From positions 124,001-188,000 of the forward strand of contig NZ_JAPFPW010000002.1 of NCBI RefSeq assembly GCF_026155325.1: a stretch of 64,000 bases of DNA, in the 5' to 3' direction. The DNA is from Desulfobotulus pelophilus. GTDB taxonomy: Bacteria; Desulfobacterota; Desulfobacteria; Desulfobacterales; ASO4-4. The notes beneath the pieces are model-generated. The model saw nothing but the letters and a program-made list of their open reading frames with translations, was not told the DNA's origin and ran no database searches. Shown piece by piece: positions 42,048-43,833 of this stretch. Position numbers and translations under genes: made by a program. How positions within the stretch are numbered: the stretch's first letter is position 1; each line of letters starts with the position of its first letter.

Positions 42048-42473
42048 CGGCGGATACAGTATTCAGGTATTATCAATGCCGTACTCTTTCGTATGGTAAG
42101 GGCCGGACCTCTCAGGAAGATGCATAGCGGCCAGCTTGTGCCACGAATCTTATTCGTAGAGCTTTTTGGCCTTTGTGGAATTGGCAAAAACTCTCCGGCC
42201 CTCCAGTCTGAAAAAGCTAAGGGTTTTTATGGTGGCTCATGGTTTGAGTGCCGGATCAAGCCGTTTGCCGCCTTTCTTGTACAGGCCTTCCAATCTTCGA
42301 TCCGAAAGGATTGCAATGCTTTGTACAAACAGCCAGAAAACTTTGCATCGGACCCGGAATATGTGCTGAAGAGGTATGGCGTACAGGGCGTCTTGTCCTG
42401 AACTGATTTGTCGTTAGTCAGAAACCATGAATTGTTGAATGATGTAGCATGATAACTTTTAGGGAACAGCATC
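42048..42473. other. Intergenic region with possible toxin-gene relic
   Basis: A 426-bp gap between pgeF and the small gene upstream of selD. No intact gene is convincing. The minus strand shows a broken frame resembling a HigB-type toxin (listed separately). No terminator was recognised after pgeF. Confidence 0.5.
42063..42316 (-). pseudogene. Possible decayed HigB/RelE-type toxin gene
   Basis: Read on the minus strand, one frame gives SDRRLEGLYKKGGKRLDPAL, then a stop, then a stretch ending NSTKAKKLYE, a second stop, and SWHKLAAMHL. These resemble the N-terminal helix, the middle helix and the HKL strand of HigB-family toxins, but the two in-frame stops and the lack of an adjacent antitoxin mean it is at best a relic. 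Chance similarity is possible. Confidence 0.25.
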
Positions 42474-42788
42474 ATGAGCATACAAAAATACAAAAAAAGG
42501 CTGGAAGATCTTTTTTTTCGTCTGCATTATCTTGGAAAAAACTGGCGTCAGATTCTTCATCTGTCACTGGGCACTGCCCATTTTGGCGTTAATAATCAGA
42601 GTTTTTCACCGGAACACTCCCTGTTCCGGGTAAAGGGTCTGAAAAAAATAACGGGCCTTCCCGTACGGATCCGTATGATGAGGGCAAGGGCTTTTATGGG
42701 CTTTATTCCCCTGAAGGATGCGGTACGGATTTTTCCGGGATATGCAAAGCGCCATGGCTATATCAATAAGGATGAAGGGAATGAATGA
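42474..42788 (+). CDS. Hypothetical protein coupled to selD
   Basis: A 104-residue basic protein (MSIQKYKKRLEDLFFRLHYL at its start) with no signal peptide or membrane span and no family that I recognise. Its stop codon overlaps the selD start region by 8 bp, which argues that it is translated and couples to selD. The ribosome-binding site is weak (TAGGGAACAGC). Residues about 60-100 (RIRMMRARAFMGFIPLKDAV) are strongly basic. The similarity of the C-terminal half to a real protein fold is unknown; it could also be a spurious frame in the selD leader. Confidence 0.5.
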   Translation: MSIQKYKKRLEDLFFRLHYLGKNWRQILHLSLGTAHFGVNNQSFSPEHSLFRVKGLKKITGLPVRIRMMRARAFMGFIPLKDAVRIFPGYAKRHGYINKDEGNE

Positions 42789-43833
42789 AAAAATGTTCCG
42801 ACCGGCACTGACGGAAAAAGTCAGGGCCGCAGGCTGAGCGGCCAAGCTGGCTCCAGGGGTTCTGGAGCGTGTGATGGCAGGTCTGAATCCCCATTGTCCA
42901 CCGGATGTTCTGGCTGGAATAAAACACAGTGAAGATGCGGGCGTTTATCGGCTTTCTGAGGTTATGGCACTGGTCCAGACCCTTGATTTCCTTACTCCCA
43001 TGGTGGATGACCCCAGAAATTTTGGCCGTATCGCAGCTGCGAATGCCTTGAGCGATGTCTATGCCATGGGTGCCAAGCCCCTTACGGCCATGAATATTGT
43101 CTGTTTTCCTGCACAGGATCTGCCGGAAGAGGTACTGAAAGAGGTGCTGGCCGGAGGGCTGGAAAAGATTGAAGAGGCCGGTGCCGTTCTTCTCGGAGGA
43201 CATAGTGTGGAGGATCCTGAGTTTAAGTACGGGCTTTCCGTGACGGGTCTCGTGCATCCTGATAAGGTGGTCATCAATGGCGGGGCAAAACCCGGAGATG
43301 CGCTGATTCTCACCAAGGTGATCGGAACCGGCGTGCTGACAACAGCTATGAAGGGAAAACTCGTTCCCGAAGAAACTGTTTCCTTCATGATCCGGTCCAT
43401 GGCCTGCCTGAATGGCACGGCAGCGGAAATATTCTGTGGTTTTTCCGTCCATGCCATGACAGATATAACCGGCTTCGGGCTGGCGGGACATGCATTGGAG
43501 ATGGCAAGGGCCAGCAGCTGTGATTTGGAAATCACAGCCGGCCATATTCCCCTTCTGCCAGGGGTGGAAGAGTATGCAGCCATGGGGTTGATTCCGGGTG
43601 GGGCATACCGCAATCGTGAGTTTTGTGGCCGTCAGCTTGTTTTTGCAAAGGGGCTTTCCCGTGCGTTACAGGATCTTACGGTTGATCCCCAGACTTCGGG
43701 TGGGCTTCTGGCTGCCGTGGACGAAGGGTCGGCGGAAGCCTGTCTGGATGCTTTGCACAATTCCGGAGTCCCAGCTGTCCTCATCGGACGTGTGGGGCAG
43801 GGAGGGGGGTGCGGAGAGGTCTTTTTCAGATGA
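42781..43833 (+). CDS. selD: Selenophosphate synthetase, selenocysteine-containing
   Basis: Makes selenophosphate from selenide and ATP, the Se donor for selenocysteine and selenouridine synthesis. The gene reads through an in-frame TGA at 42835-42837, decoded as Sec19 in the context RAAG-U-AAKLAPG, exactly where other SelD proteins have catalytic Cys or Sec (E. coli C17), with the essential Lys at 22. Automated callers would start it at 42871 and lose 30 residues. With ATG 42781 (AAGG 9 nt upstream) the protein has 350 residues, the normal length. MVDDPRNFGRIAAANALSDV and LLGGHSVEDPEFKYGLSVTG, partly quoted, identify the family. A SECIS hairpin follows the TGA. Confidence 0.95.
42841..42878 (+). 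promoter_or_regulatory. Bacterial SECIS element in selD
   Basis: Starting 3 nt after the UGA codon. The apical stem GCTCCAG (42850-42856) and CTGGAGC (42862-42868) is perfect, with loop GGGTT beginning with G as SelB requires; GCCA (42841-42844) and TGGC (42875-42878) close a lower stem. The loop begins 19 nt after the UGA, within the known range. Confidence 0.8.

Follow-up and report, generated by a model that had tools for sequence, protein, structure and literature searches.

Does the in-frame TGA near the 5' end of a selD-like frame in Desulfobotulus pelophilus end a broken or miscalled gene, or does it encode selenocysteine (Sec)? We addressed this question in a 64,000-nucleotide stretch of contig NZ_JAPFPW010000002.1 (positions 124,001 to 188,000; hereafter, the window), for which a preliminary description had proposed a selenoprotein gene with a start lost to standard callers. 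We conclude that the locus is a standard Sec-type bacterial selD whose UGA at 42835-42837 is read as Sec, and we put the probability of this reading at about 0.97. It rests on the protein context of the codon, on its conservation among related loci, and on the genome's Sec machinery.

The selD frame, its internal UGA, and its start

The frame opening at ATG 42781 runs for 350 residues to the TGA ending at 43833, and its single internal UGA is codon 19 (Table 1). With the UGA included, the product matched the selD model TIGR00476 with 381.5 bits (cut-off, 125) over profile positions 2 to 308 of 311. The codon lies in the active-site motif G-U-A-A-K (SelD residues 18 to 22) and was aligned with a Cys, followed by a conserved Lys, in the best solved chains, 3u0o and 2yye. 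We take 3u0o to be E. coli SelD, and the aligned Cys is presumably the catalytic residue. The UGA is thus present in the frame of ATG 42781 and at the Cys/Sec position of the active site, as the preliminary description had stated.

That description had also warned that a standard caller would begin at 42871 and lose the active site. Indeed, the first in-frame ATG, GTG, or TTG after the UGA is GTG 42871, and a mechanical caller gives from there an ORF of 320 amino acids (42871-43833). This UGA-less ORF matched TIGR00476 with 356.2 bits, and its match begins only at profile position 36, which means that the mechanical ORF is devoid of the SelD active site.

Table 1. Features of the selD region in the window and of related loci elsewhere in the genome (coordinates with a locus prefix are those of the fetched locus)
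Feature	Coordinates	Strand	Remarks
102-aa ORF between pgeF and the small conserved gene	42093-42401	+	
Small conserved gene, ~100 aa	42474-42788	+	No known family; 8-nt overlap with the selD start
selD, selenide, water dikinase	42781-43833	+	TIGR00476; AIRS and AIRS_C domains; best solved chains 3u0o, 2yye
selD start codon ATG (likely)	42781-42783	+	Conserved in genus
UGA codon, very probably read as Sec19	42835-42837	+	Cys-aligned in 3u0o/2yye; TGA in relatives examined
SECIS-like apical hairpin	42850-42868	+	Arms 42850-42856 and 42862-42868; loop GGGUU 42857-42861
GTG, false start for mechanical caller	42871-42873	+	
selD terminating TGA	43831-43833	+	
tRNA-SeC	L010:1497-1594	-	ARAGORN
Phage-type integrase gene	L010:52-1281	-	Pfam arm-binding, central, and catalytic domains
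FlpD/FrhD, selenoprotein candidate	L135:1483-1914	+	PF02662; one in-frame TGA, 1678-1680

Translation likely starts at ATG 42781, the codon proposed earlier. An in-frame ATG at 42793 (Met5) could serve instead and would leave the Sec reading unchanged. Judging from the aligned relatives, however, Met1 is matched by Met in loci L018/L102 and L107, whereas Met5 is matched by Ile in the same loci, and a Shine-Dalgarno-like AAGGA (42768-42772, identified by eye) stands 8 nt upstream of ATG 42781. Thus, we regard initiation at Met5 as unlikely. Locus L018 belongs to Desulfobotulus alkaliphilus, the nearest named relative (80% identity in the SelD protein), and L102, from the same-genus genome G001, is identical to L018 in the DNA around the site.

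Conservation of the UGA and of the hairpin behind it

We searched 40 genomes, namely, the organism's own, 2 of its genus, and 37 of its order, and found 42 SelD matches over the family cut-off in 35 of them; the other five (G009, G021, G033, G035, and G037) gave SelD matches below the cut-off only. All 41 matches covering the N-terminal end contained exactly one internal stop, and it was TGA in every case, the 42nd being a partial match (profile positions 130 to 310) that does not extend to the site. Loci were fetched for 30 of the 41, and in each of these, the stop stood at the aligned position. These 30, together with the best 80 of 426 matches, made up 110 loci that were chosen by similarity rather than at random and that include the window's own copy (L112) and some duplicates; TGA occupied the aligned Sec site in 110/110, including the loci from both congeneric genomes. 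The site was read by motif in 107 loci and by tblastn with codon reading in the remaining three (L071, L099, and L125).

These observations bear on the possibility that the UGA is a true stop, produced by a nonsense mutation or by a sequencing error in a Cys codon, so that the gene is broken or starts at GTG 42871. The mechanical ORF from that GTG does exist. Nevertheless, a SelD truncated in this way would be left with neither the active-site residue nor the conserved Lys, the genus conserves the reading frame ahead of the UGA, and the same codon is TGA in every locus examined, all of which makes a true stop highly improbable.

The preliminary description had further noted a perfect apical hairpin at the right distance from the UGA, and we found 7 Watson-Crick pairs and a spacing of 19 nt from UGA to loop. 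As set out in the cited part of a published bacterial SECIS model, the element has a small apical loop with a G in the first two positions and lies 16 to 37 nt from the UGA (PMC13188914). The selD hairpin fits both the loop Gs and the distance range, and it departs in nothing from the model as that part describes it.

How often such a hairpin arises by chance was estimated in two ways. Under the same distance and loop rule, a perfect stem of at least 7 bp followed 20 of the 2,277 TGA trinucleotides on both strands of the window (~0.9%), and 178 of 20,000 synonymous recodings of the same peptide met the hairpin rule (~0.9%). The hairpin alone is therefore roughly a 1-in-100 event, unusual but insufficient to settle the matter. 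Taken over its full 52 nt, the fold did not stand out from shuffled sequences (z = -0.96; 35 of 200 shuffles at least as good), and Rfam at the gathering threshold returned no match, and so no SECIS, in the whole window. Permissive Rfam filters applied to 42700-43000 yielded only sR17 and PK-BYV, far below their gathering scores, and we treated both as chance.

We also aligned the hairpin across relatives. Identical 45-nt segments were merged, and L022 was left out, being too near a contig end for the 60-nt flank; in this way, 106 loci gave 100 segments, the window's own copy included. The alignment consists of the window and 99 locus segments (99 of the 100 rows distinct) and does not contain L071, L099, and L125. 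Among the 99 distinct sequences, 81.5% of the hairpin cells could pair (shuffled mean, 77.2; 0 of 500 shuffles as high), and 33 cells carried changes on both sides (shuffled mean, 15.9; 0 of 500), these shuffle statistics ignoring the relatedness of the sequences. Changes on both sides occurred in 4 of the 7 pairs, which 13 of 500 shuffles also reached. The clearest covarying pair, columns 17 and 33, was G-C in 31 sequences, A-U in 14, C-G in 9, G-U in 8, and unpaired in 37, and the two outermost pairs formed in only 38 and 62 of the 99. When the partners were slid by 1 to 3 columns, pairing fell to 14 to 55%, although after slides of +1 and +2, 4 pairs were still changed on both sides (in 14 and 24 cells, respectively). 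In this alignment, compensatory changes lend support to the hairpin, most of it coming from one pair.

Sec decoding in the genome and a second candidate selenoprotein

The preliminary description had implied a SelA/SelB/SelC system and had named the absence of selB and selC as the finding that would contradict it. We looked for these genes in the window's genome, and all three components are there: selB matched with 379.3 bits over positions 1 to 580 of 581, selA with 620.6 bits, and tRNA-Sec with 75.4 bits (gathering score, 47). ARAGORN called a tRNA-SeC with the anticodon tca at the same locus as the tRNA-Sec match. A phage-type integrase gene lies just downstream of this tRNA gene (Table 1), and their adjacency suggests that an element was integrated at selC. 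Besides, the genome encodes a match to the selenouridine enzyme MnmH/YbbB (256.7 bits; cut-off, 219.75).

The machinery also bears on whether UGA might be reassigned throughout this genome, for example, to Trp or Gly, in which case the SelD site would not be Sec. Nothing that we found favors such a reassignment. Against it stand the presence of selA, selB, and a tRNA-Sec with the anticodon tca, the single internal TGA in the SelD of relatives, and the apparent use of a TGA as the stop codon of selD itself, shortly past the conserved domain. We consider reassignment to be exceedingly improbable.

We thus favor decoding of the codon as Sec, and the following course of events is envisaged. Translation would begin at ATG 42781, and the hairpin at 42850-42868 would recruit the SelB-GTP-Sec-tRNA complex, which would insert selenocysteine at UGA 42835-42837 before translation ends at the TGA at 43831-43833. 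The resulting SelD would supply SelA with selenophosphate for Sec-tRNA; in this genome, MnmH/YbbB is probably a second recipient, using it to form 2-selenouridine. From the gene and its context, we infer both the actual insertion of Sec into SelD and the activity of the enzyme.

The search for other UGA-containing genes that the preliminary description had suggested covered three families, formate dehydrogenase, NiFeSe hydrogenase, and FlpD (PF02662), and brought up one candidate. It encodes an FlpD/FrhD protein, of a family already known for selenoproteins, and its TGA was aligned with the Cys just before the sequence HPGDCHY in a paralogue (L134) of the same genome, the two proteins being identical at 87 of 141 positions. 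On account of this gene with its in-frame TGA, we rejected the idea that SelD is the sole selenoprotein. The candidate has a weaker apical hairpin than selD does (-5.1 kcal/mol, versus -13.7 kcal/mol for a comparably long piece of selD). The Cys paralogue is located elsewhere on the same contig, and, to judge from the two genes, Sec and Cys forms of FlpD/FrhD seem to coexist in one genome. An HdrA-like gene (L135:26-1417) adjoins the candidate; its HdrA model matches are far below the cut-offs. For formate dehydrogenase (TIGR01591 and TIGR01553), the genome gave sub-threshold matches only, with no internal stops, and for NiFeSe hydrogenase (PF00374), it gave no match.

Neighboring genes and comparison with known systems

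The small conserved gene that overlaps the selD start encodes a protein with 84 to 85% identity within the genus and 51% identity to the homologue in L126. In the four aligned sequences of this family, HFGVNN is invariant, MMRARAFMGFIPLKDAVRIFPGYA is nearly invariant, and no Cys is invariant. A profile search found the family in 8 of 291 genomes of the order. In five of these eight (G000, G001, G002, G011, and G022), a tblastn neighbor check of the respective loci (L138, L140, L139, L141, and L144) placed it between a pgeF homologue and selD; the window's own pgeF matches TIGR00726 over the cut-off. In the other three (G036, G048, and G175; loci L143, L142, and L145), neither pgeF nor selD occurs within the loci of ~3.3 kb, and in G036, selD is on a different contig from the family member. 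The product had no match in NCBIfam or Pfam, among solved structures, or among plasmids, and its single PHROG match (E = 0.23) was at chance level. One might picture a so far unnamed factor that assists selenium metabolism and whose translation is coupled to that of selD; since the four aligned sequences share no invariant Cys and no family match was obtained, a selenium role is a weak guess, and we hold it to be unlikely. The 102-amino-acid ORF farther upstream had no match in Pfam or NCBIfam and may not be a gene.

As for its significance, an annotation that ignores recoding would drop the SelD active site in this genome, and the locus points to the standard Sec-decoding trait in a sulfate reducer. 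The selD case changes no open question, and the small conserved gene at its start is the only loosely new item. In the literature searched, no paper combined Desulfobotulus with selenocysteine, and the Sec-SelD of this genus may not be described there.

The family itself is well known. Sec-type SelD was described for Deltaproteobacteria in 2006 at the latest (Zhang et al., PMC1794560), another report states that SelD itself contains Sec and counts it with the selenoproteins of one Desulfobacterales genome (PMC8318568), and Sec- and Cys-SelD are treated across life in a further study (PMC4561486). So far as the deltaproteobacterial account goes (PMC1794560), Sec-type SelD/SPS2 shares with the window's gene the same family model and a G-U-A-A-K-type active site. 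The 110 SelD loci examined have the UGA and the hairpin in the same position as the window's selD, and we found nothing material that sets it apart from Sec-type bacterial SelD. The Cys-type enzyme 3u0o belongs to the same family and has the same motif, its GCGCK being aligned with GUAAK of the window; there, Cys replaces Sec, and hence, no recoding is needed. Thus, the window's selD is a correct but ordinary case of a well-known selenoprotein family.
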